Source of the DNA: Holophagaceae bacterium
Lineage (GTDB): Bacteria > Acidobacteriota > Holophagae > Holophagales > Holophagaceae
Assembly: GCA_021286765.1 (NCBI GenBank)
Contig: JAJTBS010000002.1
Span: 682,001 to 746,000 of the forward strand
Direction of reading: 5' to 3'
DNA length: 64,000 bases
Under the pieces are notes generated by a model, which saw only the letters and a list, made by a program, of their open reading frames with translations, was not told the DNA's origin and ran no database searches. The position numbers and the translations under genes were made by a program. The number at the start of each line of letters is the position of its first letter. Position 1 is the first letter of the stretch. Of the stretch, positions 35,123-53,662 are shown piece after piece.

Positions 35123-36225
35123 CGCGGATCGACGCCGAGAAGCTCCTGGGCGGCCATGCCACCGGCACCCTCACGGAGGTCGAACGCGCGGCCCTGTTTG
35201 CCGCGGCCCTGGACCACCAGGAGGTCTTCGACGCCCTGATGGATGAGGAGGCCCTGCGGGAGCTGCTGGCGGATCCTGCGGCCAAGGCCCAGCTTCTGGC
35301 CGCCCTCGCCCCGGTGGCCGCGCCCATGGTGGTGCCCCTCTGGCGCCGCACGGGCGTGCTGGGCGCCGGGGCAAGCCTGCTGGTGGCCTCCCTGGCAGGC
35401 CTCGCCTACCTCCGCAGCCCCGACAAGGCGGCGCCAGCACTGCGGCGGGAGACGGAGCCGGCCCCGGCCGCCAAGGTGGCCGAAGCAGCTCCTGCCACGC
35501 AGGTGGTCCCGCCAGCCGCGCGCAACCGGGTGGCCTCCGAGAAGGCCAAGGAGGCGCCGGCACCCACCCAGGCTGAAGCCCCGGCGGCGCTCCCGCCGTC
35601 AAAACCCGTGCCCCTGCGGGGGGCCAGCCCGGCGGCCGCTGCGCCCGTGGCTGTGGCGGCGGAGGCCTCCCGGGAGAAGGCAACCGAGTTCCGCCGGGCC
35701 GAGGCCCAGGACCAGCTGGCGAAGAAGGCCGAGGCGCCGAAGCCCGCCGCGGCGGTGGTGGAGGTGCTGGCCTCGGTGGCTCCGCCGCCCGCCGCCCAAC
35801 CAGCCAAACGGGATCGTCCGGCCCAGGGCTTCGCGGAGCTGTCGCCCGGTGTGGTGTCCGGCGTCGTGGGCGGCGTGGCGCCGGCGTCTCCGCGCCGCGT
35901 GGAGTGGAAGGTCGCGGCCGAGTACAAACCCGCCTGGACCCTGGAACCCGGGGCCGAGGGCCTCACCCGCCTCCAGGTGAAGGGGCCTGAGGGCGCAACA
36001 GCCGTGCTGCTGAAGCGCGGGGCCGCAGGCGTGGCGGTGGTGCAGCTGGAGCGGGTGGAAACCCGCCGCGGCATGGACCACTGGCGCGGGCAGGTGCGCC
36101 TCGCCGGAGGGGAGGTCCTCGACCTCTACCTGCTGAACAGCCCCACGGCCGAGCCTGAGCGCTTGCCGGAGGTTGGGCCTGTGGATGGATTCAGGGCCCG
36201 CATCTACCCGGCATCAAGGAATTAG
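35119..36225 (+). CDS. Ala/Pro-rich single-pass membrane protein, putative anti-sigma
   Basis: 368 residues. An N-terminal helical cytoplasmic part (ALFAAALDHQEVFDALMDEE, like the zf-HC2-type region but with no HxxxCxxC zinc motif) is followed by a transmembrane helix at about 79-98 and a long Ala/Pro/Lys-rich periplasmic stem (about 100-240). The stem ends in PGVVSGVVGGVAPASPRRV, and a beta-rich C-terminal domain (about 255-365) follows. The position and ATGA overlap with the sigma gene suggest an anti-sigma role. The GVVGGVA element also occurs in the next gene's product and is seen in acidobacterial TonB-like proteins. Confidence 0.6.
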   Translation: MTRIDAEKLLGGHATGTLTEVERAALFAAALDHQEVFDALMDEEALRELLADPAAKAQLLAALAPVAAPMVVPLWRRTGVLGAGASLLVASLAGLAYLRSPDKAAPALRRETEPAPAAKVAEAAPATQVVPPAARNRVASEKAKEAPAPTQAEAPAALPPSKPVPLRGASPAAAAPVAVAAEASREKATEFRRAEAQDQLAKKAEAPKPAAAVVEVLASVAPPPAAQPAKRDRPAQGFAELSPGVVSGVVGGVAPASPRRVEWKVAAEYKPAWTLEPGAEGLTRLQVKGPEGATAVLLKRGAAGVAVVQLERVETRRGMDHWRGQVRLAGGEVLDLYLLNSPTAEPERLPEVGPVDGFRARIYPASRN

Positions 36226-36341
36226 GCCAGCGGACGCTTACCAAACTCCTTTTTCTTTTGAATCGCCTGAAAGGATTTCCTCGCCCGCGCCATTCCCTCC
36301 TGAACCGCGCCATGCCGGCGCGGCCCCACCGGGAGGAACCC

Positions 36342-38705
36342 ATGTCGCTGCGCCGCTCCACCACCACCCTGCTCGCCTGCGCGGGGCTCGCCGTCTCCTT
36401 CCAGGGCGATGCCCAGGCCCGCATCCGCCCCACGCCCGCCGGCATGGAGCGCGGATCGAAGGGCGAGGATCCTGACGCCACGCTGTCGCCCTACTTCTTC
36501 GTGAAGGGCGGCGATGCCGACCTGGACCAGCTGCCCCTGAAGGCCACCTCGGCCAGGGTGGCCATCGCAGGTGTCATCGCCGACGTGAAGGTGACCCAGG
36601 TCTACAAGAACACCGGCACCAAGCCCCTGGAGGCCATGTACGTGTTCCCGGGCTCCACGCGCTCGGCGGTCTACGGCATGACCATGACCCTCGGCGAGCG
36701 GGTGCTGAAGGCCCAGATCAAGGAGCGCGGCCAGGCCCGGGCCGACTACGAGCAGGCGAAGCAGCAGGGTCGAAGCGCTTCCCTGCTGGAACAGCACCGC
36801 CCCAACGTGTTCCAGATGAACGTGGCCCACATCCTGCCCGGCGATGAGATCCGTGTGGAGCTGTCGTACACCGAGCTGCTGGTGCCCACGGATGGCACCT
36901 ATGCCTTCGTCTACCCCACGGTGGTGGGCCCGCGCTACGCCGGCCGGGCGGGCACCGGGTCCAGCACGGGCGAGAGCTGGGTGGCCAACCCGTACACCCA
37001 TGCTGGCGAGAAGCCCGCCACCACCTTCGACCTCGAAGTGAAGCTTTCCGCAGGGCTCCCCATCCAGCACATGGCTTGCGCCACCCACAAGACCTCCATC
37101 GCCTACGACGGAAAGGCCGAGGCCACCCTGAAGCTCGATCCTTCCGAAGCCCATGGGGGCAACCGCGACCTCATCGTGAAGTACCAGCTGGCGGGCGGGG
37201 CGGTGCAGTCGGGCCTGCTGCTGGACCAGGGGAAGGACGAGAACACGTTCCTGCTCTTGGCCCAGCCACCCAAGCGCGTGACGCCCAAGGATCTGCCACC
37301 CCGCGAATTCGTCTTCATCATGGACATCTCCGGCAGCCAGATGGGCTTCCCGATCGAAGTCTCCAAGGTGCTCATGAAGGAGATGATCCAGGGACTGCGG
37401 CCCCAGGACCTCTTCAATGTCATGGTGTTCGAGGGCAGCTCGGCGCTCTGGTCGCCCACCTCGCAGCACGCCTCGCCGGAGAACGCCGCCCAGGCCCTGG
37501 CCTTCGTGCGGTCGCAGAACGGCGGCGGGGGCACGGAGCTGGGCAGCGCCATGCGGCGGGCCCTGGGCCTGCCCCGCGTGCCCGGCATCTCACGCACCTT
37601 CGTGGTGTCCACGGACGGCTACATCAGCGCCGATGGGCAGGTCTTCGACATCATCCGGAAGAACCTGGGCTCGGCCAACCTCTTCACCTTCGGCATCGGC
37701 AGTTCGGTGAATCGCCACCTCATCGAGGGCATGGCCCACGCGGGGCAGGGCGAGGCCTTCGTCATCACCAAGCCCAAGCAGGCCGCCGCCGAGGCCGAGC
37801 GCTTCCGCGCCTATGTGTCGTCGCCGGTGCTCACCAACCTCAGGCTCACCAGCCACGGCTTCCAGATCCAGGATCTCGAACCCATCCAGCTGCCAGACGT
37901 GCTGGCGGACCGGCCCGTGATCTGCCTCGGCAAGTGGAAGGGCGAGGCCAGGGGCACCGTGACGCTCTCGGGTATCAGCGGCGCCGGCCCCTGGAGCCAG
38001 ACCTTCGAGGTGGGCCAGGTGAAGGGCCGCAGCCACGGCGCCCTGCGCCAGCTCTGGGCCCGCCAGCGCATCCAGATGCTCTCGGACTACGACCAGTTCG
38101 GCCAGGACGAGGCCCGCAAGGCCGAGGTCACCCGGCTGGGGCTCGCCTACAGCCTGCTGACGGCCCACACCTCCTTCGTGGCTGTGGACACGCTGGTGCG
38201 CAACGCCGGCGGTCAGAGCACCACGGTCACCCAGCCGCTGCCCCTGCCCGAGGGCGTGTCCGATGCCGCCGTGGGCTACCTCCGAAGCGGTGTGGTAGGT
38301 GGCGTGGCCGCCAGCGCCATGCCCTACGCGCCCCCGTCGATGGCGAAGCGGGCTGCCGTGGTCGAAGTCGTGGCCCAGGACCGGGCGGCCCGGCAGGAGA
38401 AGGCCAAGGAGGCCCCCGTCCTCCGCATCCGCGGCTTCTCCGGCATCACCGGCACGTCGGACCCCGCCGCCCTGCGCCGCGAGGTGGAGGCCCGCCTGCT
38501 GGATCCCGCCCTGGCCGCGGCCCTGGCGGGGATGCCCGCGGGAACCACCCTTGAGCTGAAGGTGGAGGCCTCCGGCCAGGTCCTGTCGGCCACCTTCAGC
38601 CGCGCCTTCCCGGGCGTGGCGAAGGCCAAGGCGCTCATCGCCCTCTGGCGCCTGCGGAGCTGGACCGGCGGCCTGACGGGCAGCCTGGAGCTGACGCTGG
38701 GCTGA
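36342..38705 (+). CDS. VIT and VWA domain exported protein
   Basis: 787 residues. A signal peptide (MSLRRSTTTLLACAGLAVSF, QGDAQA) is followed by a VIT domain (about 50-180; VKVTQVYKNTGTKPLEAMYV) and a VWA domain whose MIDAS DISGSQMG starts at D328. A C-terminal part includes LRSGVVGGVAASAMPYAPP and a final alpha/beta segment (PVLRIRGFSGITGTSDPAAL). VIT-VWA proteins resemble inter-alpha-trypsin inhibitor heavy chains and bacterial surface adhesion proteins. No LPxTG or PEP-CTERM signal is present. GGGAGG precedes ATG 36342. It is the third gene after the sigma and membrane protein genes and is probably part of the same unit. Confidence 0.85.
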   Translation: MSLRRSTTTLLACAGLAVSFQGDAQARIRPTPAGMERGSKGEDPDATLSPYFFVKGGDADLDQLPLKATSARVAIAGVIADVKVTQVYKNTGTKPLEAMYVFPGSTRSAVYGMTMTLGERVLKAQIKERGQARADYEQAKQQGRSASLLEQHRPNVFQMNVAHILPGDEIRVELSYTELLVPTDGTYAFVYPTVVGPRYAGRAGTGSSTGESWVANPYTHAGEKPATTFDLEVKLSAGLPIQHMACATHKTSIAYDGKAEATLKLDPSEAHGGNRDLIVKYQLAGGAVQSGLLLDQGKDENTFLLLAQPPKRVTPKDLPPREFVFIMDISGSQMGFPIEVSKVLMKEMIQGLRPQDLFNVMVFEGSSALWSPTSQHASPENAAQALAFVRSQNGGGGTELGSAMRRALGLPRVPGISRTFVVSTDGYISADGQVFDIIRKNLGSANLFTFGIGSSVNRHLIEGMAHAGQGEAFVITKPKQAAAEAERFRAYVSSPVLTNLRLTSHGFQIQDLEPIQLPDVLADRPVICLGKWKGEARGTVTLSGISGAGPWSQTFEVGQVKGRSHGALRQLWARQRIQMLSDYDQFGQDEARKAEVTRLGLAYSLLTAHTSFVAVDTLVRNAGGQSTTVTQPLPLPEGVSDAAVGYLRSGVVGGVAASAMPYAPPSMAKRAAVVEVVAQDRAARQEKAKEAPVLRIRGFSGITGTSDPAALRREVEARLLDPALAAALAGMPAGTTLELKVEASGQVLSATFSRAFPGVAKAKALIALWRLRSWTGGLTGSLELTLG

Positions 38706-38789: not shown

Positions 38790-39524
38790 ATGCGATGGCA
38801 TCCAGGAGTGGCCTTCGTGCTGGCCTTCGGGGGATGGAACCAGGGTGGGCTCCAGCCCCGGGAACCGACCGGAGATGCGGAACTCTCGGAGGCTCGGGCC
38901 CGGATGGTGCGGGAGCAGCTCGTGGCCCGGGGCATCGTGAACCCCCGGGTGCTGGAGGCCATGGCCCAGGTGCCCCGCCACGCGTTCGTGCCCGCCGGCG
39001 AGCGTGACCGGGCCTACGAGGACGGGCCCCTGCCCATCGGCCACGGGCAGACCATCTCCCAGCCCTACCTCGTGGCCTTCATGACGGAGGCCCTCGATCC
39101 GAAGCCCACGGACCGCGTGCTGGAGGTGGGCACGGGCTCGGGCTACCAGGCGGCGGTGCTCTCGGGGCTGGTGGCCGAGGTGTGGAGCATCGAGCGCCTC
39201 GAGCCTCTGGCCCGGCGCGCCGAAGCGGACCTTGGGCGGCTCGGCTTCGCCAACGTGAAGGTCCGCTGGGGGGACGGCTTCCTCGGCTGGCCCGAGGCGG
39301 CGCCCTTCGACGCGATCATCGTCACCTGCGCCCCGGAGGAGGTGCCCCCGGCCCTGGTGACTCAGCTCAAGACGGGCGGCCGGATGATCCTTCCCGTGGG
39401 CTCCCAGTGGGGGGCCCAGGAGATGGTGATCCTGCGGAAGACGGACGCGGGCCTGGAAAAGAAGGCCGTGCTGCCGGTGCGCTTCGTGCCGATGGTGCCG
39501 GGGCGGAAGCCGTCAGAACCTTAG
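38790..39524 (+). CDS. pcm: Protein-L-isoaspartate O-methyltransferase
   Basis: A 244-residue enzyme repairing isoaspartyl residues with AdoMet. RMVREQLVARGIVNPRVLEA and VPRHAFVPAGERDRAYEDGP are the Pcm N-terminal signature, and DRVLEVGTGSGYQAAVLSGL is the AdoMet motif I. The first twenty residues (RWHPGVAFVLAFGGWNQGGL) look like a signal peptide, so the enzyme may be exported, which is unusual but known for some bacterial Pcm paralogues. Its end overlaps the convergent beta-barrel gene by 12 bp. Confidence 0.92.
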   Translation: MRWHPGVAFVLAFGGWNQGGLQPREPTGDAELSEARARMVREQLVARGIVNPRVLEAMAQVPRHAFVPAGERDRAYEDGPLPIGHGQTISQPYLVAFMTEALDPKPTDRVLEVGTGSGYQAAVLSGLVAEVWSIERLEPLARRAEADLGRLGFANVKVRWGDGFLGWPEAAPFDAIIVTCAPEEVPPALVTQLKTGGRMILPVGSQWGAQEMVILRKTDAGLEKKAVLPVRFVPMVPGRKPSEP

Positions 39525-40046
39525 GCCCACCTGCACCTGGATGTCGAAGACGCCGCTGTCCTCCTCGGAGCCGGTGCTGGTCTGCGTCTTCAGCGTCTTC
39601 CCCGGACCGAGGAAGAGGCCTGTGTTCCAGAAGAAGTGGGAGCCGAAGGCGCGGGTGTAGCCGCCGCCCACCAGGGGCGCCGTGGTGCTGACGCGGCTCG
39701 TGTCGCCGTAGGTGAGGGACTTCTCGGCCTTGGCCCAGCGGTAGACCGCGCCGCCCAGGTACCAGGTCCCCCGGGCCTCGGGGCGGAAGCGGTAGGTCAC
39801 CACCGGGCCGGTCCGGGTTTCGGTGGTTTCCGACAGGGCGCGGCCCGTGAAGGGATCGTGGAAGGTGTCCATCCACTGGACGTGGCGGAAGCCGAAGGTC
39901 CAGGCGCTGCCCGCGGGACGGAAGCTGGCCTGCAGGTCCAGGCCCTGGTTGGCGAAGGTGAACACGCCGACCCCGAGGCGGGTCTCCCCAGACCAAAGCG
40001 TGGCCGCTCCCAGCGAGAGGAGCAGGAGAAGGGGGCGGGTCCGCAT
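39513..40046 (-). CDS. Outer-membrane beta-barrel, hypothetical (177 aa)
   Basis: GGAGG lies a few bases ahead of ATG 40046. The signal peptide is MRTRPLLLLLSLGAATLWSG. The rest alternates polar and hydrophobic residues in strands (LGVGVFTFANQGLDLQASFR, FDIQVQVGLRF), with the C-terminal Phe of a barrel protein. No family is recognised. It is downstream of the two giant exported proteins on the same strand, 69 bp after the FnIII gene, and may belong to that unit. Confidence 0.65.
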   Translation of the reverse strand: MRTRPLLLLLSLGAATLWSGETRLGVGVFTFANQGLDLQASFRPAGSAWTFGFRHVQWMDTFHDPFTGRALSETTETRTGPVVTYRFRPEARGTWYLGGAVYRWAKAEKSLTYGDTSRVSTTAPLVGGGYTRAFGSHFFWNTGLFLGPGKTLKTQTSTGSEEDSGVFDIQVQVGLRF

Positions 40047-40115
40047 GGGAGCCTCCGCTGGGTGGGAAATACACGGATGGTATACACCCATCCCGTAGCG
40101 GAGGCGCTGGTTTGC

Positions 40116-43100
40116 TTAGGGCGTGCGCACCAGGGGCTGGCTGGGCGTGGTGTTCATGCCGCTGCTGCTGCGGGCCACCACCCGGAGGTGGAGGGTGCCC
40201 TGGGCGGGCAGGACGAAGCTGGTCTCCGTGGCGCCCAGGATGCTGCTGATGCACTCATAGTCGTCGTCCTCGCCCGTGAAGGAGCGCCAGATGGTGTAGC
40301 CGGCGGCGTCCGGAGCGGCCTTCCAGGTCAGGGCGCTTCCGGCCAGGGCCAGCTGGGTGGGCGCGCCGGGCACGGGCTCGCCGGGCACGAAGACGTCCAG
40401 GGAGCCCTGGGGGTCGCTGACGTTGCCCGTGGCATCCACCGAGCGCAGGGTGTAGCGGATGTAGCCCGGGGTGGCCTGCTTGTCCGTGAAGGCGGTGCCC
40501 CCGATGGCCGAGGGTGTTAGGCGTTCCACCGCGCCCAGGGGCGCGCCGGCCTTGGCCTCGCCATCCACCAGCGTGTAGCTCAGGGCCTGCCGTTCCACGA
40601 AGGTGCCGGCCAGGTCCGGGGCCTTGGTCTGGGTCCAGGAGAGGGCCACGTCCAGCCGGCCCTGGGGGGTCTCCTGCAGGTCCACGGAGCCGGGCGAGGG
40701 GCTGGGGGGCGCCACAATGTCGGGCAGGCGCACCTCGATGGGCTCGCTGAGCGGCCCTTCCACGGTGCGGCCAAACTCCTTGGTGAGGGCCTGCACCCGG
40801 AAGTAGAACGTGGCGCCGCCGTACTGGGCCACGTCCGCCGGGAAGGTGACGATGTAGCGCTCGGTGCCAACCGGGGCGTCGTTCACGCGGGTGAAGGTGC
40901 CCGGGCCGCCCTTCACGGCGATCTTGGCCAGGTGCTCCTTCCGGCCCTCGGCCAGCCGGAGTCCCGCGCCCTGGGAGGCCACCACGCCGCGCAAGGCGAG
41001 GCTGTGGAGGGCCGGGTTCATGGCAACCTGGCCCGGAACCGGCTTCGCCGCGGCAGCCCCGGCTCCGCTCAGGGCGACCGGGTGGAGGGCGGGCGAAGCG
41101 GCGGTGGCGGTCGTCCGGGGCGCCAGCACCTCAAAGGCGCGGAGCCCGGACTGCAGGGAGACGGAGGGCCTCGGGGCGGAGATCAGCTCCACCTTCTGGG
41201 GGGCCTGCTGGAGCACGTAGTCCAGGTTCGCGCCGGGCAGGGGCTTGGCCCATTCCAGCAGCACGTGGATCTCCTTGGGCTGGGCGAGGGCGAGCATGAG
41301 GTTGGGACTGCGCACGGCCCGGAAGGCCACGGGCTTGGCTAGGAGGGCGGCGCGGCCGGGGGCCAGGGTGGCGGCGGGCAGCACGGCCGCCTCTTTGATC
41401 GAAGGGCTCTTGGCGCTGGCGCTGCTGCTGGGGCTGCCGCTGGGTTTGGTGGCCAGGGCCAGTTTGGCCTTGGGCGCCACAGAGGCCTTGGGAGCGGTGA
41501 AGGTGCCGGACACCGCGGCCTTCGGGGCCAGGATGGCGGACCGCGCGGCCCGCAGGCTGCCGCTGGCCATGGCCAGGCTGGCGGGACGCAGCAGGCGCCG
41601 GGAGGGCCCGGACGGAGGCGCCTCCTGGGTGACCTTGCCGGACAGCGTGCCCACGGCCAGCCGGCCGGGCAGGCTGCTGTCGCTCACTTCCAGCTTCCCT
41701 TCGGGGGAGCGGCCGCTGACGTTGCCGCGCTTGTCCACGGAGGTAATGGCGTAGCGGTACGCCTGGCCGGCCTGGAGGGTGCTGTCCGTCCACTCGGCGA
41801 CGGCGGTGTCGGCCATCTTCTGGAGGGGGCCGTCGCCCGTGGCGCGGTAGACCTCGTAGCCCTGGAGGTCCGCGTCGGGCGAGGGGCTCCAGACCAGGGC
41901 AGCCGGGGCCACGGAGCCGTCGGCGTTGCTGCGGAGGATGCCCGCCTCGCCCAGGGCCTTGAGCGCGCCCACAGGCATGGTCGCCACGCCCAGGGCCCGC
42001 TGCTGACGCTTGGCCTCGCTGGCGGACAGGCTCGGGGCCGACAGGGAACCGCTGGCGGACGCGCCCAGGCTCGGGGTGGAGGCGAGGGGGGCGGCGGGCG
42101 CCGCGGGCTTCACCTGGAAGGGCGTGAGGGCTGTGGAGGCAGCGGGGGCGTTCAGGGCCGCGCGCTGGTCCAGGGCCGCCACGCGGGGATCTTTCAAGCG
42201 GGCCGCCTGCACCGTGCGCAGGTTGTCCCGGGCCGAGGCCTCCGCCTTGAGCATGGGGCGGCCCGGCACTTGGGGCGGCTCCAGGTCCTTGGGGATGCCG
42301 GCCACCACGGGGGCGGTGTCCAGGGACTGCTCCTGGCCACCCAGGTCCACGGCCGTGACCTTGTAGTGGTAGGTCTTCTCGTTCTGGATGGCGCTGCCGC
42401 CCTTGATGCTGTCCGTGAAGAGGGCCCGGGGTGCCTGGCGCCCGCCCGGGTGCACCCGGCCCGCGGCGAGGCTGGCCTGCAGGGCCGCGGAGGCCTTGGG
42501 GCTCAGGGCGGGCAGGCCGCCGGGCTGGCTCACGCGGTCCAGGGCCTGGCGGTGGGCCTCGGCGACCTTCTGGGGGGTGCGGGCCGCCTCGGGCAGGGGC
42601 TTGAGGCTGCGCTCCATGCTGCCCTGGATGCCCATGGCGCGGCGGAGGGAGGTCTCGGGATCCTCCAGCTCCAGTTCCACGCGCTTCACGGGATCGGTGG
42701 TGATGCGCTGCCAGGGGCCACTGGGGGACTCCGACCGGTAGACCTGGTAGCCCGTCACCGCGTCCGTGGGCGTCTCATCCCAGTTCAGCAGCACCTCGCC
42801 GTTGCCACTGGCCGCGGTGAGGCTGGTGGGCTGGGGGATGGGCGTGGGCTGGGTGGTGTCGAAGGTCTTGGGGCAGACCACCTCCGCCTGGCCCCCTTCG
42901 GGCAGGGCGATGACGATCTTGTACTTGAACTGGCCCTTGCCGGGATCGTCCGTGGCCGTGAGCCCCAGCACTTCGGCGAGGCCCGTGTCCAGGTCGGCGC
43001 GCATGTGCATCATCTGCAGGTCGCCGCGGTTCAACTTGCCCGCGGCGCGGAGCTCGCGGAACTGCTTCAGGGATTTCTCGGGGCTCAGGTCCTTGGCCCG

Positions 43101-43589
43101 CGTGAGGGCGCTGCGGGGCACCTCCAGCTGGCGGAGCTTGGAGGTGGTGTCGTGCTGCACATTGCCGAAGGGGTAGGCCAGGATGCGATCGCGCTCCTCG
43201 GGGGGCATGGCGTCCAGGCGCTTCTCCGCGGCACGCCCCTGGAGGAAGCCGATGGGCTTTTTGCCCGTGACATCCTTCCAGGTGGCTTCGCCGACCTTCT
43301 GGCGGAAGACGTGCAGGCCCTCGGTGGGCATCTCGCCCTGGTCGTTGGCCCAGCGCAGGACGACGGTGCGGTCCTTGCGGACCAGCCCGGTGAGGTGGAA
43401 GGTGCCCTGGGTCTTGCCCGCGGGCAGCAAGTTTGCGGGAAGTTCCATGCGGGGGCTCACCACGGCCCTGGGGCCCATGAGCGGAGGCGTGGCGGAGGTC
43501 ACCTGCGGCGGGAGGGTGGACTTGCCCTGGGGCTGGAGCCCCGAGGCCAGCAGGAAGAACAGGGGCGTGATGGCGGTCCGGTTCGTCAT
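40116..43589 (-). CDS. Large exported fibronectin type III-domain protein
   Basis: 1157 residues with an N-terminal signal (ITPLFFLLASGLQPQG). A first beta-domain lies at about 60-110 and a helical segment at about 115-200. A first FnIII begins at about 251 (TSLTAASGNGEVLLNWDETP), is interrupted after GPWQRITTDP by an insert (about 300-390), and resumes with KTYHYKVTAVDLGGQEQSL. Further FnIII domains are near 563-636, 968-1070 and 1074-1157. The linkers at 430-560 and 640-760 are Ala/Pro/Ser-rich. Ten bases separate it from the upstream gene, so the two are one operon. It is probably cell-surface or periplasmic. No enzymatic motif is seen. Confidence 0.75.
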   Translation of the reverse strand: MTNRTAITPLFFLLASGLQPQGKSTLPPQVTSATPPLMGPRAVVSPRMELPANLLPAGKTQGTFHLTGLVRKDRTVVLRWANDQGEMPTEGLHVFRQKVGEATWKDVTGKKPIGFLQGRAAEKRLDAMPPEERDRILAYPFGNVQHDTTSKLRQLEVPRSALTRAKDLSPEKSLKQFRELRAAGKLNRGDLQMMHMRADLDTGLAEVLGLTATDDPGKGQFKYKIVIALPEGGQAEVVCPKTFDTTQPTPIPQPTSLTAASGNGEVLLNWDETPTDAVTGYQVYRSESPSGPWQRITTDPVKRVELELEDPETSLRRAMGIQGSMERSLKPLPEAARTPQKVAEAHRQALDRVSQPGGLPALSPKASAALQASLAAGRVHPGGRQAPRALFTDSIKGGSAIQNEKTYHYKVTAVDLGGQEQSLDTAPVVAGIPKDLEPPQVPGRPMLKAEASARDNLRTVQAARLKDPRVAALDQRAALNAPAASTALTPFQVKPAAPAAPLASTPSLGASASGSLSAPSLSASEAKRQQRALGVATMPVGALKALGEAGILRSNADGSVAPAALVWSPSPDADLQGYEVYRATGDGPLQKMADTAVAEWTDSTLQAGQAYRYAITSVDKRGNVSGRSPEGKLEVSDSSLPGRLAVGTLSGKVTQEAPPSGPSRRLLRPASLAMASGSLRAARSAILAPKAAVSGTFTAPKASVAPKAKLALATKPSGSPSSSASAKSPSIKEAAVLPAATLAPGRAALLAKPVAFRAVRSPNLMLALAQPKEIHVLLEWAKPLPGANLDYVLQQAPQKVELISAPRPSVSLQSGLRAFEVLAPRTTATAASPALHPVALSGAGAAAAKPVPGQVAMNPALHSLALRGVVASQGAGLRLAEGRKEHLAKIAVKGGPGTFTRVNDAPVGTERYIVTFPADVAQYGGATFYFRVQALTKEFGRTVEGPLSEPIEVRLPDIVAPPSPSPGSVDLQETPQGRLDVALSWTQTKAPDLAGTFVERQALSYTLVDGEAKAGAPLGAVERLTPSAIGGTAFTDKQATPGYIRYTLRSVDATGNVSDPQGSLDVFVPGEPVPGAPTQLALAGSALTWKAAPDAAGYTIWRSFTGEDDDYECISSILGATETSFVLPAQGTLHLRVVARSSSGMNTTPSQPLVRTP

Positions 43590-43599
43590 GGCGGCCTCC

Positions 43600-46500
43600 T
43601 CAAATGTCCAGGTGGGCGCTGACGGAACCCTTGAAGGCGCCGCCCAGCACGCTGTAGTGGATGGTCACATTGCCCGAGAACGTGGGGCTGCCCGGCACCT
43701 GGAGGGCCATGTTCGTGGCGAAGCTGCCACTGAAGAGGGTGATGTGGTAGGTCTTCCAGAAGGTCTCGAAGCTCATGCCGAAGGAGGCCCCGCCGTCCGC
43801 GGCGAAGGTGCCCAGGAAGCGCGGATTCTTGTCGGCGTCGATTTCAATGATCATGTCGCCCCGGGCATTCAGCCAGGCGCTGCCGTAGACGATGCCGAAG
43901 TCCCCCGACTTGCTGTAGCTGAGCGCGGCCCCGGCGCCGAAGGTGGACACGCCGCCCTGGAAGTCCGCGGTCATGTAGCCCGAGCCGTCGAACGCATTCA
44001 GGAATCGGCAGGTGATGGGCGTCTCGCGGGTGCCGATGTGGACGAACTGCCGGTCGGGGCCGAAGTGGAGCTCCACCGTGCCCATGGGCCGCAGAAGGCC
44101 GTTGTAGAGGTTCAGGTCCGCGGTCAGGGTGGCGTGGAAGGTGTCGGGCTTGCGGGTGAAGCGGACATCGGCCGTGACCACGTTGTCCGCGGGCTGCTTG
44201 TCGCGCCCGCAGAAGAGCCAGCCCTTGCCCTGCAGCATGGTGGTGAGGTTTTGGCTGATGTAGAGGTCCAGGCCGCCATGGAAGGTGAAGTTGTCGCTGG
44301 TGCCCGCATCCACGCCGGCCATGAGGGCGAGGCCCAGGCTCGGGTCGGTCTTGCCCTTGATGTCCGTGAGGTTGCGGATCTCGTCCGGCAGGAAGTTCTG
44401 GGCGAGGCCGCCGGTGAAGCCGTAGATCTCCAGGTTCGGCGCCACGGGGATGCCGCCGGTGGGGAACTCGAGGTGGCCCAGCCCGAAGAAGTAGGGGTAG
44501 TAGCCACCGGCCGGCTGGTAGTGGCGGCCGAAGCGCAGGCCCGCGGTGAGGGTGAAGGGCGTATCGCCCACGTTGGCCTTGATGGTGCCGTCGCCTTCGA
44601 AGTAGGCGTCGCTCACCTGGTCGTCGGCGCTCTCCACCTGGAAGCCCAGCTTGGCGTCCAGGGAGCCCAGGGAGGCCACGCTCTGGCTGACGGTGTAGGG
44701 GTGCTCGAGCTCCATGACACCCGTGCCCTCGTCATGCTTCTCCGTGGTGAAGAGCAGGCGGTTGGGGAAGAAGGGCAGCAGGGGGCTGATCTCCATGTCG
44801 CCGCCCAGGCCCACGTAGAAGCGGCCATCGGCCAGGACGCCGTAGCCGCTCTCGGCCAGGGCCAGGGGGAAGCCCCAGATGTTGAGGGAGGGCCGATCCT
44901 GCACGCCGCCCCAGCGGGAGCCCTTGAAGTCCAGGGACAGCTCCTCGGTGCTGCCGTCGATGCCGCCGCCGCTGGCCTCCAGCACCAAGTGGTCGAAGGG
45001 GATGGAGGGCACGGCGGCGCCGGCGATGGCGAAGTCAAAGCGGCCCGCCAGGTCGAGGTTCGTGGGGTAGAGCCGCGCCGAATCCAGCACCATGCTGATG
45101 CCGATGAGCTTGGTGTGGAGGGCCATGGGGCCCTGGGGCGTCTGGGTGATGAGCTCCACCTGCTCGGCGCCGTTCTGGGTGAGGCGGAAGGTGATGGGAG
45201 GGCGGAAGTCCACCAGCAGGGGCTTGGCCGTGAGGTCCAGCTGGCCCTTCACCACCGGTCCGTTGAGCAGGGCCCCCTCGACGAAGCGCAGGTCGAAGGG
45301 CTCCAGCTTCACGGGCGCGATGTGCAGGTTGACCAGGCTGTCCAGCTTCACGCCCAGGGCCCCGCTGAAGGCGCCATTGCCCTCGAAGCGCCCGGCCTTG
45401 CCCGGCACGGAGACGGGCACGCGGGTGTTCCCGGGGCCGAAGGTGTAGAGCTCGATGGGCAGGGTGGCGTGGAAGTCCGGCAGGAAGACGCCCATCCAGG
45501 CCTCGGGCAGGGCCTCGGGGGAGTGGGCCGTGGAGAAGTCGCACACCACGGTGGTGGACGTGGGCAGAACGCGGTACGCGCCCACCTCGACGGGCTTCGG
45601 ACCGGGGTCCCCGGCGGCGTAGAGGCCGTCGGCCAGCTCGGCGGGGCTGTCGGCGAAGGTGGCCTGGAGCGTGAAGCCGGGCCCCCAGGCAAGGGTGCCG
45701 GAGATGCGGGTGCCCTTGGGGCTGATGAGCCCCTTCACCACGCTGGCGGTGCCTTTGCTCAGGTCGAGGCGGTACGAGGTGAGGCCCGAGGGGTGGAGCG
45801 CGGCCGCCGGCAGGTTGGCGGTGCCGGAGAAGCCCTCCCAGGCCACCTCCACCCGCCCCGCGGCGGTGAGGGCGGGCGCGTTCCGGCGCGCGGCGAGGGT
45901 GCGGGAACCCGAGGGGGCGGGAGCAGCCGGGGCGGGGGCGTGGCCGGGGATGCGCCCGGACAGCGGATCCGAGACGTAGGGCTGGCCCGTGGCGCCCACG
46001 CGGCAGAGGATGTTCAGGGGGAACTGGAGCTGGGCCGGGCCGCTGAGCAGGGGCGTTCCCCGCTCGAAACCGAAGGCGAGGCCCTGCATCCGCCAGGTCT
46101 GGCCCTTGTGGAGCAGGGGCAGGTCGGTGGCGAGGCTGGGGGCCACCACGCCGGTGCCGCTGAGGAGGGCGCTGTCGAAGGCCAGGCCGGGGACCTCGAA
46201 GTGGGGCGCAAGCCCCGTCGCGCCGTGGCGAACGGGAGCGGCGATGTCGACCTCCAGGTTCCCCTTGAGCTTCACCCCGGCGGGGGAGAAGGTGACTTCG
46301 CTGGCGATGAGGTGGGCCGAGAAGGCGCCCTCCGCCAGGGCCAGGTCGCCGGGGGTCAGGGTGCCGCTGAGCCCCTGGGCGCCAAAGGCCAGGGGCGCGA
46401 TGTCCAGGCGGATGCCCGCGAGGGTGGCTGAGCCCTCCAGGTGGCTGCCCTTGTCGGAGAGCACGGCCTTGGTGAGCTGGTAGGCCCAGCCCTGGTGATC

Positions 46501-46848
46501 GGCCTTGGCGTCCTTGAGGGCCTCCTCCACGGTGCCTTCGGCCACGGCGCCCTTGAGAACGAGGTTCTTGAACTCAAGCTTCCGCGGGCCGAGGGGCTGG
46601 GGCAGCTCGAAGTAGGCGCTGCCGCTGAACTTCTCGGGCGTGGCGTCGCCATCGGGTTCCACGCGAGTGGCCTTGAAGCCGCCGAGCGTGAAGCTCTCCA
46701 CCTGCATCTTCGGCTTGAGGATCTTGTCCACCAGCTGAGTGGCCACCGGCTTGAGGGCCTGGATGACCTGGGGCGGCACCTGCGAGGTGACCGGCACGGC
46801 GACCAGGAGGGCGATCAGGAGCGAGCAGAGGTGGCGCGAAGGGCCCAT
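43600..46848 (-). CDS. Very large exported beta-rich protein of unknown function
   Basis: 1082 residues. The signal peptide is MGPSRHLCSLLIALLVAVPV with cleavage near TSQ. GGAGG precedes the ATG. The chain is glycine-rich with repeated alternating strands throughout, for example VESFTLGGFKATRVEPDG and FHATLTADLNLYNGLLRP, and shows no coiled coil, cysteine pattern or enzyme motif. An Ala/Pro linker (GHAPAPAAPAPSG) near residue 300 splits it into a shorter N-terminal and a longer C-terminal half. It could be an elongated beta-solenoid or an AsmA/lipid-groove-like protein; I do not recognise it. It is the first gene of the operon with the FnIII protein. Confidence 0.7.
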   Translation of the reverse strand: MGPSRHLCSLLIALLVAVPVTSQVPPQVIQALKPVATQLVDKILKPKMQVESFTLGGFKATRVEPDGDATPEKFSGSAYFELPQPLGPRKLEFKNLVLKGAVAEGTVEEALKDAKADHQGWAYQLTKAVLSDKGSHLEGSATLAGIRLDIAPLAFGAQGLSGTLTPGDLALAEGAFSAHLIASEVTFSPAGVKLKGNLEVDIAAPVRHGATGLAPHFEVPGLAFDSALLSGTGVVAPSLATDLPLLHKGQTWRMQGLAFGFERGTPLLSGPAQLQFPLNILCRVGATGQPYVSDPLSGRIPGHAPAPAAPAPSGSRTLAARRNAPALTAAGRVEVAWEGFSGTANLPAAALHPSGLTSYRLDLSKGTASVVKGLISPKGTRISGTLAWGPGFTLQATFADSPAELADGLYAAGDPGPKPVEVGAYRVLPTSTTVVCDFSTAHSPEALPEAWMGVFLPDFHATLPIELYTFGPGNTRVPVSVPGKAGRFEGNGAFSGALGVKLDSLVNLHIAPVKLEPFDLRFVEGALLNGPVVKGQLDLTAKPLLVDFRPPITFRLTQNGAEQVELITQTPQGPMALHTKLIGISMVLDSARLYPTNLDLAGRFDFAIAGAAVPSIPFDHLVLEASGGGIDGSTEELSLDFKGSRWGGVQDRPSLNIWGFPLALAESGYGVLADGRFYVGLGGDMEISPLLPFFPNRLLFTTEKHDEGTGVMELEHPYTVSQSVASLGSLDAKLGFQVESADDQVSDAYFEGDGTIKANVGDTPFTLTAGLRFGRHYQPAGGYYPYFFGLGHLEFPTGGIPVAPNLEIYGFTGGLAQNFLPDEIRNLTDIKGKTDPSLGLALMAGVDAGTSDNFTFHGGLDLYISQNLTTMLQGKGWLFCGRDKQPADNVVTADVRFTRKPDTFHATLTADLNLYNGLLRPMGTVELHFGPDRQFVHIGTRETPITCRFLNAFDGSGYMTADFQGGVSTFGAGAALSYSKSGDFGIVYGSAWLNARGDMIIEIDADKNPRFLGTFAADGGASFGMSFETFWKTYHITLFSGSFATNMALQVPGSPTFSGNVTIHYSVLGGAFKGSVSAHLDI

Positions 46849-47161
46849 GGGAACCTCCAGGGAGACGTCGGACAGGATGGAAATTGAAACCGTGATGATA
46901 CGAGGATTGCGCCCGTACCGGCGCCACAGGGGGTGGAAGATTCCGTTAATTTTTTATCAGGTGGGGCGGCGGCGGACCCTCCGGATGGGGCTTGAACGCG
47001 TCTGGCGGCGCCAGCCGCGGGCCTTCCTCCGACGTGACAGAGGCTCCGACTCCGTGAGCCCGAGGGGCGGGTGGGAGCACCCGCGGGACAGCGAGCGTCG
47101 GACATGGAGCCGCATCTCCACAGTCCCTCTCGGCCGGAGGCCAGAGGGGAAGGCTCAAATA
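46849..47161. other. Non-coding spacer ahead of the giant-protein operon
   Basis: No credible gene. It contains an AT patch (TTAATTTTTTATCAG near 46946-46961), a 7-bp hairpin GCGGGTG/CACCCGC with GGAG loop (47067-47084), and, up to 47161, sequence resembling decayed copies of the tRNA-Pro region. The promoter of the leftward operon should lie here, but no clear consensus was found. Confidence 0.45.
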
Positions 47162-47236
47162 CCGGCTTCAATGGGCCAAACAGAAGGCCCTCCGAAGAGG
47201 GCCTTCCGGGTGTTTTGGTCGGCGCGAGAGGATTCG
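47162..47236 (-). repeat. Copy A of a 75-bp direct repeat (tRNA-Pro 3' end plus terminator)
   Basis: 73 of 75 bases match 47320-47394. It contains the last 21 bases of tRNA-Pro (47216-47236) with encoded CCA, and a complete terminator hairpin (47180-47205). The sequence to the right diverges from the tRNA gene after TTCG, so this copy lacks the rest of the tRNA. Confidence 0.85.
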
Positions 47237-47319
47237 CCCAGGTCTGGCTGCGCCATCCCAGGTCTCGCTCCCGGCCGTCCACTGGACGGCCTCCGCGATC
47301 CCACTCGGAGGTTCGAATC

Positions 47320-47373
47320 CCGGCTTCAATGGGCCAAACAAAAGGCCCTCCGAAGAGGGCCTTCCAGGTGTTT

Positions 47374-47394
<21 letters not shown>
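47320..47394 (-). repeat. Copy B of the 75-bp direct repeat, overlapping the intact tRNA-Pro
   Basis: Same unit as 47162-47236 at an offset of exactly 158 bp, here continuous with the full tRNA-Pro gene. TCGGAGGTTCGAATCC at 47305-47320, just left of this copy, is an exact inverted copy of the tRNA-Pro T-arm region 47388-47403. Confidence 0.85.
47338..47363 (-). terminator. Intrinsic terminator of tRNA-Pro
   Basis: On the minus strand AAGGCCCTC-TTCG-GAGGGCCTTTTG: a nine-base stem, a stable UUCG loop and a T-run, 11 bp after the tRNA CCA end. It is also present in duplicated form at 47180-47205. Confidence 0.85.
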
Positions 47395-47450
<56 letters not shown>

Positions 47451-49325: not shown

Positions 49326-49913
49326 CTAGCTTTCTGCGAGCGCCTTCCCTGTTTCGGGCAGCAGGGCGGTGGCCAGATCCGAGGCCGCGCGGTAGTAGGC
49401 GTGGGCGGACACCTGCGGCAGCTGCTCAGCCACCACCTTCACGAAGGGCGCAAGGTGCTCCCGCACCAGGCGCTGGGCCAGTTCAGCGCAGCGCCGACGC
49501 TCGCCAGGATCGCCCTCGATGACCTGGCCCAGCAGAAAGCTCAGGCAGGCCAGCTCCAGGCCCAGGTGATCGGGGGGCACGGCCAGATCCTCCTGGACGC
49601 TGATGTCGGCCTCGTCGTAGATGGCCCGGAGGGGCCCGAGCACCTCGGGGGCCATCTGGTGGCCCCGGGCCTGGACCGATTCGAAGAGGTGCACGACGTC
49701 GGTGCCCCTGGACTGGAGGAACAGCCGGGTGTACTCCACGGCCTGGTCTTCCCCGGGAAGGGCGCATTCAGCCATCTGGCGCAGAGGCTCGGCGAGGGCC
49801 GAAGGGGGGCCTTGGTTCAGCAGGTCCTCAAGGGCCTCCTTCAAGTCCCCCTCGGGCTCCAGGAAAGCCTCGGCGAGGATCTGGGCGAGGTCTGCCAGCA
49901 GGGCAAGCGTCAT
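49326..49913 (-). CDS. TorD/DmsD-type molybdoenzyme chaperone
   Basis: A 195-residue all-helical protein of the TorD family. The central EYTRLFLQSRGTDVVHLFES corresponds to the conserved E-Y-x-R-L-F block, and PPDHLGLELACLSFLLGQ to the PDHLxxEL-type motif that recognises Tat signal peptides and holds the apo-enzyme until cofactor insertion. It lies 10 bp downstream of the NrfD-type subunit gene and serves the Tat-exported reductase at 51.5-53.7 kb. Confidence 0.9.
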   Translation of the reverse strand: MTLALLADLAQILAEAFLEPEGDLKEALEDLLNQGPPSALAEPLRQMAECALPGEDQAVEYTRLFLQSRGTDVVHLFESVQARGHQMAPEVLGPLRAIYDEADISVQEDLAVPPDHLGLELACLSFLLGQVIEGDPGERRRCAELAQRLVREHLAPFVKVVAEQLPQVSAHAYYRAASDLATALLPETGKALAES

Positions 49914-49923
49914 GTCCGGGCCC

Positions 49924-50904
49924 TCAGCGCAGCATCCCCATCTTGTGGAAGCTGCTCAGCTGACCAGCGTAGACGAAGATGTAGCGGAGGAGAAACCCGC
50001 CGAAGAGCACCAATCCGGCGGCCGTCAGGGCGAGGTTCCGGCTTCCGTGGAACGGCCGCCCCTTGAGCAGGCTGGGAGCCAGCTCATAGACCTCGATCCC
50101 CAGGGGGACCAGGAGCCCGAAGCCCAGGAAACAGACCCAGAAGACGAAGGTGTAGGGCCCGCCCAGGATCAACCAGAGGGCCTGCTTCACGGCCAGGACT
50201 GAGAGCTGGCCGTGGATCAGGTAGGGCAGGATGATGAAGAGCTCCAGGGAGATGAAGATCACGTCCAGCCAGACCAGGAACTTCAGGTCGCGCTGCTCCA
50301 CGGGGTTCCGCTTGTCCAGCACCAGGGCCAGCAGCAGGGCCGCGGTGCCGCTGGAGAGGGCCGAGAACAGGAACATCTGGGCCACCAGGTTGGTGTTCCA
50401 GAAGGGACGGGCCGACACGGCGCCCAGCAGAACGCCCGTGTAGATGCCCACGCCGATGGAGAAGGGGAAGCCCGCCATGGCGATGGTCTTGCGGTGGGCG
50501 CTGAGGTCCACATTGAGGCGATGCACCTGCTTCCAGGTGGCGGGCACCTTGGCGAAGAGCCTCTGCCGCCAGTCCTCGGGCAGCCACGCGAAGGCGTAGA
50601 CGAAGGCGATGAGGGTGAAGATCGTCAGCAGGTACGACCCGATGGACATGGGACTCTCCCACCGGAAGTGGGTGAACAGCTTGTAGAAGCGGTACCAGTG
50701 GCCCAGGTCGAGGATGAGCAGGCCTGAGCCGATGGCCACGGGCCAGGGCGCCAGCAGGGCCCCCATGCGGGCAATGCGGGGGTGGGCCGGTTGACCATCC
50801 ACCTCCAGGTAGTTGGCGAGGCCCGCCGCGAAGAAGAGCCCGGCGGACAGGCCACCCAGGAACAGGTAGACCACGATGAGGAGACCCCAGTTGAATTCGT
50901 GCAT
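49924..50904 (-). CDS. NrfD/PsrC-type membrane anchor subunit
   Basis: A 326-residue protein with eight or nine membrane helices. It starts with WGLLIVVYLFLGGLSAGLFF, a typical NrfD/PsrC N-terminus, with LILDLGHWYRFYKL in the next loop. The family takes electrons from menaquinol and passes them to a four-cluster ferredoxin subunit. It is 9 bp after that subunit's gene. Together with the Mo protein and ferredoxin it forms a three-subunit PsrABC-like reductase. Confidence 0.93.
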   Translation of the reverse strand: MHEFNWGLLIVVYLFLGGLSAGLFFAAGLANYLEVDGQPAHPRIARMGALLAPWPVAIGSGLLILDLGHWYRFYKLFTHFRWESPMSIGSYLLTIFTLIAFVYAFAWLPEDWRQRLFAKVPATWKQVHRLNVDLSAHRKTIAMAGFPFSIGVGIYTGVLLGAVSARPFWNTNLVAQMFLFSALSSGTAALLLALVLDKRNPVEQRDLKFLVWLDVIFISLELFIILPYLIHGQLSVLAVKQALWLILGGPYTFVFWVCFLGFGLLVPLGIEVYELAPSLLKGRPFHGSRNLALTAAGLVLFGGFLLRYIFVYAGQLSSFHKMGMLR

Positions 50905-50913
50905 CGCCGTCTC

Positions 50914-51465
50914 CTAGACCAGGTAGTAGAGCTGGGGGCCATTGCCCGTCTGAGGTTCCTTGACCTGGTAGCGCCGGGTGGAGAGCAGCTCGTGGATCCG
51001 GCTGGTGGGATCCTCCAGGTCGCCGAAGACCCGCACCTTGCTGGGGCAGGTCTCCACGCAGGCGGGCAGGACGCCGCCATCGATGCGATGGATGCAGAGG
51101 GTGCACTTGTGGACCGTGCCACTCTCCTCGTGGAAATACCGCGCATCGTAGGGGCAGGCGATCATGCAGTAGCGGCAGCCGATGCAGTCGTCCTCGGCCA
51201 CCAGCACCACACCGTCCTTGCGCTGCCAGGAGGCCCCCGTGGGGCAGACCCGCACGCAGGAGGGGTGCTCGCAGTGGTGGCACTGCTCGGGCTCGAAATC
51301 GATGCGCAGCTTGGGGTACTCGCCCTGGTGCGACTCGTTGATCCAGTTCCGGAAGTTGCCCACCGGGACCTCGTTCTCGGCCTTGCAGGCCACGGCGCAG
51401 GCCTTGCAGTTGATGCATTTCCTGGAGTCGATGACCAGGGCGTAGCGGCGTTTCTTCATGGCCAT
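50914..51465 (-). CDS. Four-[4Fe-4S] ferredoxin-like subunit (PsrB/PhsB/DmsB type)
   Basis: 183 residues from ATG 51465 (GGGGAGG ahead). Sixteen cysteines form four clusters: CINCKACAVAC, CHHCEHPSCVRVC, CIGCRYCMIAC and CTLC with two later cysteines (ACVETC). It carries electrons between the NrfD anchor and the molybdenum subunit and should be co-exported with the latter, since it has no signal of its own. Gaps of 9 to 10 bp on both sides fix it in the operon. Confidence 0.94.
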   Translation of the reverse strand: MAMKKRRYALVIDSRKCINCKACAVACKAENEVPVGNFRNWINESHQGEYPKLRIDFEPEQCHHCEHPSCVRVCPTGASWQRKDGVVLVAEDDCIGCRYCMIACPYDARYFHEESGTVHKCTLCIHRIDGGVLPACVETCPSKVRVFGDLEDPTSRIHELLSTRRYQVKEPQTGNGPQLYYLV

Positions 51466-51475
51466 GGCGCCTCCC

Positions 51476-53662
51476 CTATGCGTTCGCGACTTTGACGAAG
51501 GTTTCGTGGAAGGCGGCATTGCCCGAGACCTTGTCCCAGGCCGTCTCCAGCAGCACGGCGTCGCTGGCGCCCACGTTGTAGACGAGGCTCTGCATCTTCG
51601 ACTTCTTGCCGAAACCGTGGAGCATGAACACGCAGTCGGGCCGGATCTCCTCGGTGACGCGCGCCTTGAGCTTCACGGTGCCCACGCTGCTGGTGACCTG
51701 GACCGTGGAACCGGTGCGGATGCCCAGACGCTCGGCCGGCTTCGGATTGATCCAGAGGTCGTTCTCCTTCATGTGCTCGTTCAGCCAGACGTTGTTGGTC
51801 TGGTTGGCGTGGGTGAAATAGCCGACCCGACCCAGGATCAGGCGGAAGCGGTCGCTGGGCGGCGGCACCGGCGCGCTGTAGACCGGCAGGGGGTCATGAC
51901 CTGCCTCCTGCAGCCGCTCGGAGAACAGTTCGATCTTGCCGGTCTTGGTGACGAAGCGGTGGTCCGGCGTCAGCGTCTTGCCGTAGCTGGGCTGGCCGGT
52001 GGCGGCCCACACCCCGTGCTTCTTCATGTGCTCGGCCGCCATGGGGATGGGCAGTTCCTTGAACTCGGCCTCGACCCACTGCTCGATGGTGTAGTCGAAG
52101 TAGTCGGAGAGGCCCAGGCGCTTGGCGAGGCCCTGCACGATCTCCAGGTTGGGTTTCGTGTCGTGGATGGGCTTCACCACCTGCTGGCGGTAGACCACGG
52201 CGGGCCAGATGCCGGGCATGACTTCCACAGGGTCCGTGCGCTCCAGGTAGGCGCTCTCGGGGAAGACCACGTCGGCATACCAGGCCATGTCGCTCATGGC
52301 CACGTCGATGACGCCGATGAAGTCCATCTGCTCGATCATTCTCAGGGTCTTGGCCTGGTCGGGCATGGCGTTCATCGGATCCTGCTTGTAGACCATCCAG
52401 GCCTTCACGGGGTAGGGCTTCCCGCTGAGCACGTTCTCGCGCAGCTTCAGGTAGACGCCGTCGCCCTTGGCGGCCAGGGGGAAGTGCTTGTCGATCTCGT
52501 CGACGCGCGGCGCCTTGGGCTCATCCCAGGGCATGAAGAGGAATTCACCCTTGGGCAGCTTGGCGTTGGGCACCATGCCGCCCACCTGGTCCCAGTTGCC
52601 CACGATGGCGTTGAGGATGGCCTGGGCGCGGCGCATCTGGAAGTCGTTCTGGTACCACGAGGAGCGCCGCCCGGCGTAGTAGAGGGCCCGGGGTGCGGCA
52701 TCGGAGAACTCCCGGGCGATGCGGACGATGTCCTTCGCCGGGATCTCCGTTTCCTTCTCGGCCCACTCCGGGGTGTACTGCTTCACGTGCTCGGCCAGCT
52801 GATCGAAGCCGGTGGTATAGGCCGCGACAAAGTCCTTGCTGTGGCGGTTCTCCTTGATGATCACGTGGATCATCGCGAGGATGAACGCCAGGTCGGTGCC
52901 GGGCTTGATGGGGTACCACTCGTCCGCCTTGGCGGCCGTGACGGTGAAGCGGGGATCGAGGTAGACCAGCTTGGCCTTGCGTTCCATCACGCCGCCGATG
53001 AGGTCCATGGTGTCGGGCGTGATGATGCTCTCGAAGCGGTTCGCGCCGGACATGATGACGAACTTGCTGTTGAGCAGGTCGAAGCTGGGCACGGTACCGA
53101 AGGTGGCGCTGTAGGCCAGGTTCACCGAAGCCAGGCACAGCGTGGGATGGCGCACGAGGTTGGGTGAGCCGAAGGCCAGGCCGAGGTTCTTGAAAAACAC
53201 CTCCTGGAAGCCCTCGGTGGAGGACCACAGCGTGCCCTCGGGGCCGTGCTTGGCCTTCACTTCGGAGAGCTTCTTCGCCGCGAAATCGAAGGCTTCGTCC
53301 CAGCTCACGGCCCTCCACTTTCCCTCGCCCCGGGCGCCCACGCGGATCATGGGCTGCTTGAGGCGGTCGGGATCGTAGACCTGCTTGATGGCCGCGTTGC
53401 CGCGGGCGCAGAGCATGTCCCGGGACTTCGGGTTCTCGGGGTTGGGGTTCAGCTTCTTGACGACCCCCTTCTCCACCACGGCGATGGCAGAGCACTTGTT
53501 GGGGCACAGCTCGCAGGTGGTCGGCACCTCGCGGTTGTCGGCCTGGCCGCTCCGGCCCTTCTTGAAGTAGCTGAGGCAGCCCACCTGGAGGGTGGTGGCG
53601 GCCCCGGCAGTGGCGCCCGCGGCCTTCAGGAAGAGGCGGCGATCCATGAGCTTGGTTCCCAT
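51476..53662 (-). CDS. Tat-exported Mo-bis-MGD reductase, catalytic subunit (polysulfide/thiosulfate/arsenate-type)
   Basis: 728 residues. The Tat motif DRRLFLK (Arg8-Arg9) is followed by a [4Fe-4S] site (C50, C53, C57 and C85; CELCPNKC, MLCARG). The likely molybdenum ligand is C176 in RHPTLCLASVNLAYS. The family includes PsrA, PhsA, TtrA and ArrA; the length and gene set (ferredoxin plus NrfD) fit PsrABC/PhsABC best, but the ligand environment alone does not name the substrate. It reduces an extracytoplasmic acceptor with electrons from the quinone pool. ATG 53662 has GGGAG ahead. Its neighbours supply chaperone and, upstream, a porin-like barrel and cytochrome c. Confidence 0.88.
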   Translation of the reverse strand: MGTKLMDRRLFLKAAGATAGAATTLQVGCLSYFKKGRSGQADNREVPTTCELCPNKCSAIAVVEKGVVKKLNPNPENPKSRDMLCARGNAAIKQVYDPDRLKQPMIRVGARGEGKWRAVSWDEAFDFAAKKLSEVKAKHGPEGTLWSSTEGFQEVFFKNLGLAFGSPNLVRHPTLCLASVNLAYSATFGTVPSFDLLNSKFVIMSGANRFESIITPDTMDLIGGVMERKAKLVYLDPRFTVTAAKADEWYPIKPGTDLAFILAMIHVIIKENRHSKDFVAAYTTGFDQLAEHVKQYTPEWAEKETEIPAKDIVRIAREFSDAAPRALYYAGRRSSWYQNDFQMRRAQAILNAIVGNWDQVGGMVPNAKLPKGEFLFMPWDEPKAPRVDEIDKHFPLAAKGDGVYLKLRENVLSGKPYPVKAWMVYKQDPMNAMPDQAKTLRMIEQMDFIGVIDVAMSDMAWYADVVFPESAYLERTDPVEVMPGIWPAVVYRQQVVKPIHDTKPNLEIVQGLAKRLGLSDYFDYTIEQWVEAEFKELPIPMAAEHMKKHGVWAATGQPSYGKTLTPDHRFVTKTGKIELFSERLQEAGHDPLPVYSAPVPPPSDRFRLILGRVGYFTHANQTNNVWLNEHMKENDLWINPKPAERLGIRTGSTVQVTSSVGTVKLKARVTEEIRPDCVFMLHGFGKKSKMQSLVYNVGASDAVLLETAWDKVSGNAAFHETFVKVANA

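Follow-up and report, generated by a model that had tools for sequence, protein, structure and literature searches.

A giant beta-rich protein, G1, and an FnIII protein, G2, are encoded side by side in a bacterium of the family Holophagaceae (phylum Acidobacteriota; genome of 3.15 Mb), within the 64,000-nucleotide stretch of DNA analysed here, which we call the window. That these two genes form a real conserved unit is well supported, and their products very probably work together. Given that the unit is conserved and linked and that both proteins are exported, the pair is best read as a two-protein extracytoplasmic system, and we put at about 60% the probability that G1 and G2 are two subunits of one extracytoplasmic assembly with a structural, non-enzymatic role. 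The module is apparently undescribed, with no described system to file it under; a description was not found in the open-access literature searched, and other journals could change this.

The gene pair in the window

The initial annotation reported two open reading frames of 1082 and 1157 residues, 10 bp apart, both with signal peptides and together occupying more than a tenth of the window. The coordinates proved to be exactly those reported (Table 1), a hydrophobic core was found at each N-terminus, and the share of the window was computed as 10.5%. Other species carry intact copies of both genes (alignments A1 and A2), and between close pairs dN/dS comes to about 0.08-0.10 for G1 and 0.18 for G2; by this measure G1 and G2 are both under purifying selection. 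Their intactness in other species and the low dN/dS indicate that they are real genes and not chance long ORFs of a 70% GC genome. An antisense ORF of 1082 aa that overlaps G1 (43183-46431, forward strand) was set aside as a shadow ORF. The GC and GC3 of the pair are those of the host. In other pairs the giant and its partner mostly show few-base overlaps or similarly short gaps, a spacing that is consistent with translational coupling.

Table 1. Positions of the gene pair, its parts and adjacent features in the window
Feature	Position	Strand	Remarks
G1, giant beta-rich exported protein, 1082 aa	43600..46848	-	first gene of the pair; orthologues in 8 genomes
G1 signal peptide, about residues 1-23	46780..46848	-	no lipobox cysteine; hydrophobic core 3.10 (Kyte-Doolittle) from residue 7; sequence inspection
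G1 conserved core, residues 432-1022	43783..45555	-	common to Bacteroidota and Proteobacteria giants (hhalign, alignment A7)
Segments LEIYGFTGGLAQNFLP and HFGPDRQFVHIGTRETPI of the G1 core	within 43783..45555	-	
G1-G2 gap, 10 bp	43590..43599	-	
G2, exported FnIII protein, 1157 aa	40116..43589	-	follows G1; orthologues in the 8 genomes that have G1
G2 signal peptide, about residues 1-21	43527..43589	-	hydrophobic core; sequence inspection
G2 motif 1, VVLRWANDQGEMPTEGLHVFR	43302..43364	-	typical of partner proteins; two-motif pattern
G2 motif 2, AEVLGLTATDDPGKGQFKY	42921..42977	-	typical of partner proteins; two-motif pattern
G2 best-scoring FnIII domain, residues 565-624	41718..41897	-	Pfam PF00041, E 5.5e-5
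Gene 3, small exported beta-barrel-like protein, 192 aa	39513..40091	-	tested as module member, excluded
tRNA-Pro(GGG) beside the pair	47374..47450	-	neighbouring interval is the variable locus
Second copy (86 bp) of the tRNA-Pro 3' end and terminator	47151..47236	.	94% to 47309-47394

G1 has no significant match in Pfam, NCBIfam or PADLOC, and G2 none beyond FnIII in the same three collections. The PF00041 score of the window G2, 23.7 bits, falls just under the Pfam cut-off of 25; six of the eight members of the G2 family are matched, the best homologue at E 4.6e-8. G2 shares its FnIII modules with other proteins of that kind, but is set apart from them by long inserts, a family-specific N-terminal region and its tie to the giant. 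No lipobox was found in either N-terminus and no transmembrane anchor was seen in G1. A sorting signal was found for neither protein, and the C-terminal sorting domains TIGR04183 and TIGR04131 of NCBIfam matched neither G1 nor G2. A search for internal repeats in G1 gave only a weak signal. Sequence searches of the PDB returned nothing credible for the giants and FnIII segments alone for G2, and AlphaFold models of the two giants, built on a three-row alignment, reached a mean pLDDT of 27 and 31 and are unusable for fold or interface. A defence system was discarded as an explanation, there being no PADLOC match. A phage, plasmid or viral origin was likewise dismissed: at E 1e-3 G1 matched neither phages nor plasmids, it had no match in IMG/VR, and the PHROGs matches of G2 sit on FnIII stretches. 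The pair does have relatives, being part of a broad superfamily with a distant relationship to DUF6603.

The initial annotation also placed a small beta-barrel gene 69 bp from the pair and suggested that the three adjacent exported products form one assembly. The 69-bp gap holds when gene 3 is read from an internal ATG (39513-40046, reverse strand). Seven other genomes of the genus encode homologues of gene 3, and the pair is missing from each of these (0/7); gene 3 in turn is absent from all seven other pair-bearing genomes. This disjoint distribution rules out a three-gene system, and the suggestion of a single assembly of three products was abandoned.

Relatives of the pair and their linkage

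When 100 relatives were searched, G1 was found in the query genome and seven others; the genomes with full-length G2 are precisely these eight. The two genes are adjacent, in the order G1-G2, in all eight, and their pairwise identities are correlated with r=0.99; on these comparisons, G1 and G2 evolve together. A combined profile (A7) run over 77 Holophagaceae genomes found the giant in 13, distributed over 4 of 11 genera.

Outside the family, the first lead was a weak tblastn match (E about 9) to a megaplasmid of Persicobacter. A second weak match pointed to a plasmid of Mycetohabitans, on which a giant of 2337 aa and an FnIII-like protein are encoded, and this in turn led to Azospirillum. 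An HMM of the eight G1 proteins (A1) was then run on 739 ORFs and 739 reversed decoys, and the giants of Mycetohabitans, Persicobacter, an acidobacterium (G303), Azospirillum and Bergeyella alone outranked every decoy. The Azospirillum and Bergeyella giants had been picked for their resemblance to other giants, and that of G303 for a weak DUF6603 score, not for similarity to G1. Aligned with a profile of these five giants, G1 gave an hhalign E of 6.8e-15 over 544 columns (reversed control, 0.17), and with a tidier core profile (A6) an E of 7.5e-17 over 608 columns (with reversed controls close to 0.2). The G1 family also aligned with the Persicobacter and Bergeyella giants alone (E 3.7e-7) and with those of Mycetohabitans and Azospirillum alone (E 3.4e-12). 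Profile A6 holds no Holophagaceae sequence; swept blindly over 396 Acidobacteriota genomes it matched 11, and it recovered G1 in the window genome (E 3e-6) and in a relative, G027 (4e-8). On profile evidence, G1 thus belongs, though divergent, to a superfamily of beta-rich giants. Relatives of its N-terminal third (residues 1-330) were not detected outside Holophagaceae. The invariant columns of the superfamily (alignment A7) are almost all Gly, Pro or hydrophobic, with no catalytic-looking set, which points to structure and not to catalysis. In one giant (G060; L140, 3070-9951), N-terminal PKD domains are fused to the core.

The FnIII partner accompanies the giant far beyond the genus. It lies directly after the giant in all 12 assessable Holophagaceae genomes (in a 13th the contig ends at the giant), is the neighbour in six Acidobacteriota outside the family (G180, G203, G209, G329, G348 and G355) and is one gene away in two more (G303 and G331). 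The partner is therefore next door or one gene away in 20/20 assessable Acidobacteriota genomes with a giant, a count of genomes that are not phylogenetically independent. In Persicobacter sp. JZB09 (CP012852.1) the order is the same, an exported 1560-aa giant being followed by an exported 689-aa FnIII protein with abutting codons. The partner is directly beside the giant in Azospirillum, a phospholipase D-like gene separates the two in Mycetohabitans, and Bergeyella has a decayed giant, for which an intact partner was not seen. As judged from these loci, the pair of giant and FnIII protein spans at least three bacterial phyla. The linkage of the two genes as a unit, proposed in the initial annotation, was thereby borne out both among the close relatives and in the wider superfamily. 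Two Acidobacteriota loci (L107, 12287-14734, and L118, 6453-8336) have partner, middle gene and giant laid out as in Mycetohabitans; their middle genes, of 815 or 627 aa, have no Pfam match, whereas the Mycetohabitans counterpart is phospholipase D-like.

Against a profile built from other exported partners, G2 scored E 2.5e-22 (518 columns), in an alignment that rests mainly on FnIII modules; since such modules are common, this score alone is no proof of special kinship. The N-terminal part of G2, taken alone, gave no significant alignment with the distant partners. Two motifs, LRW..G(F/L).(V/L).R and A..LGL..D..Y.Y, recur in that order in the partners, and the stretch of the second in G2 aligned with the Persicobacter partner at an hhalign E of 1e-5. 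The two-motif pattern, which was written after seeing the sequences, matched partner proteins alone and none of 591 shuffled ORFs. By profile, G2 counts as a member of the FnIII family found with the giants.

Signal peptides are present on both partners in Holophagaceae (three genera), G180 and Persicobacter, and on neither in G203, G303, G329, G331, G348, G355, Mycetohabitans and Azospirillum. Among pairs with readable N-termini none is discordant, with the proviso that starts were picked automatically and single cases may be wrong. Such concordance would be expected if the two proteins have to come together. Moreover, the giants without a signal peptide share the core, which suggests that the core folds as a soluble protein and argues against a membrane barrel.

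Within the genus the pair is present in 7/47 genomes; over the eight pair-bearing genomes it occupies at least three chromosomal positions. A stretch common to the genus runs from SurE-acylphosphatase-PRTase through sigma-VIT-VWA, PIMT and tRNA-Pro(GGG) to MerR-NtrC. In the window, the pair occupies the interval from PIMT to the 3' side of tRNA-Pro. Three relatives (G021, G022 and G029) have it 5' of tRNA-Pro, reversed in orientation and ahead of MerR; in three others (G026, G027 and G030) it is beside SurE, and in G055 it is in an unrelated place. The interval between PIMT (pcm) and tRNA-Pro (window 39524-47374; L075-L088) varies in the genus: it is nearly empty in one relative (235 bp; G001, L086), contains an apparent RND efflux operon, together with two TetR-type regulators, in five (G006, G007, G017, G024 and G025), and a response-regulator gene in two (G002 and G032). 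Because of the several insertion positions, the empty site and the other genes at the same site, we regard the pair as an accessory unit that was moved, gained or lost several times and never split.

A direct duplication of the tRNA-Pro 3' end (47151-47394), its copies 158 bp apart, was found at none of the other loci compared and resembles a scar of integration or excision. It was rejected as an att site of the pair itself, since the copies do not flank the pair and the other pair-bearing loci have no second copy. Elsewhere in the window, a sigma-70 region 4 protein, a Pro/Ala-rich protein and a 787-aa VIT+VWA protein are encoded in a row (34544-38705) and conserved in the genus; the Pro/Ala-rich protein may be an anti-sigma factor of the adjoining sigma-70 region 4 protein. 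A NarJ-type chaperone, an NrfD-like membrane subunit, a 4Fe-4S protein and a 728-aa ORF (49326-53662) look like a molybdopterin oxidoreductase operon, in which Pfam matched the NarJ-type protein alone.

Known systems and possible roles

DUF6603 (PF20248) proteins are likewise giants. Giants of the G1 superfamily match them by profile (E 2.6e-9), and the Mycetohabitans relative is annotated as DUF6603, so that by profile comparison the superfamily is distantly related to this Pfam family. G1 itself, however, has no PF20248 match, nor has any protein of its genome, and A1 against DUF6603 proteins gave a non-significant E of 0.09; the DUF6603 loci looked at here have other partners. One relative (G022; L106, C7, 3243-13094) has a true DUF6603 protein of 3283 aa besides its G1/G2 pair, with different neighbours.

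The Persicobacter locus brings in polymorphic toxins. Its pair is preceded by T9SS type B sorting-domain and PorP/OmpA proteins and followed by a 2119-aa pretoxin-HINT protein, none of which is found in Holophagaceae. This 2119-aa protein presumably carries a TANFOR domain; the NCBIfam search reported no TIGR02542 there. Downstream of the decayed Bergeyella giant lie FnIII proteins and a Toxin-deaminase. In the sections covered of a study of TANFOR toxins, FnIII genes are significantly enriched beside the toxins, whereas the giant is not described and the two genes are not treated as a module (Jana et al. 2020, PMC7073777, Table 1). From these neighbourhoods the pair could be an accessory of toxin delivery that carries, anchors or exposes polymorphic toxins, those of Holophagaceae being encoded elsewhere. 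We consider this role rather unlikely: no toxin gene was seen next to the Holophagaceae pairs where the flank sufficed, most acidobacterial and proteobacterial pairs have neighbours other than toxins, and several pairs are entirely without signal peptides. TANFOR systems, moreover, have toxin and immunity gene adjacent, while G1 and G2 are not toxins and have no toxin among their neighbours in the window. Cargo of the T9SS bears a C-terminal sorting domain, in contrast to G1 and G2, which lack TIGR04183 and TIGR04131; a search of the genome for the translocon SprA gave no match, in a run in which no positive control matched either.

Other roles can be weighed against the composition of the two proteins. 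G1 is beta-rich by inspection, exported and conserved in its strand-like C-terminal end, as might be expected of a barrel in the outer membrane, or of a lipid-transfer bridge of the AsmA/TamB type, that has G2 for its periplasmic partner. This is improbable, given that AsmA, TamB, OMP and DUF3971 have no Pfam match to G1 at E up to 10, that the same core, occurring in giants without a signal peptide, most likely folds as a soluble protein, and that no transmembrane anchor was seen in G1. The initial annotation had left room for one protein being a plain known family such as AsmA; on the Pfam searches, neither giant is of that kind. A secreted or surface pair that degrades or binds polysaccharides, of the type of FnIII-bearing glycoside hydrolases, is very improbable: the FnIII modules of G2 do find matches in the corresponding modules of cellulases and CBM proteins, but FnIII segments alone match, there is no catalytic domain and the giants have no invariant set of polar residues. 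The patchy distribution of the pair (7/47 genus and 13/77 family genomes, beside a variable tRNA-Pro locus) would also be seen with independent accessory genes that are neighbours by chance in one lineage. That notion is barely credible and already contradicted by the linkage data, as the genes are never more than one gene apart in 20/20 genomes, have several insertion sites and are paired in three phyla.

In the extracytoplasmic assembly that we favour, G1 and G2 would be co-translated, cross the inner membrane by the Sec route and bind each other in the periplasm or at the cell surface. G1 may form a soluble scaffold of beta structure with an extended shape, and G2 would consist of consecutive FnIII modules and a special N-terminal region that docks on G1. 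The pair would then act as a structural, adhesive or cargo-holding assembly devoid of enzymatic activity, of which the Holophagaceae form, with no toxin gene, may be the bare scaffold. More tentatively, the pair may belong to a widespread two-protein machine that has so far gone unrecognised, intracellular or exported, in which a giant beta scaffold and its FnIII partner hold a cargo that varies with the gene neighbourhood (polymorphic toxins in Bacteroidota, a phospholipase D-like protein in Mycetohabitans) and which is cargo-free in Holophagaceae.

The retention of the pair in 20/20 Acidobacteriota and in two further phyla, with concordant export, is strong evidence, drawn from sequence comparison, for an undescribed protein complex. 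With two genes, a compact core and clear motifs, it offers a defined target for structure determination and knock-out. These results link orphan giants of soil bacteria to the polymorphic toxin neighbourhoods of Bacteroidota, and through them a part of the DUF6603-like dark matter gains a partner protein.
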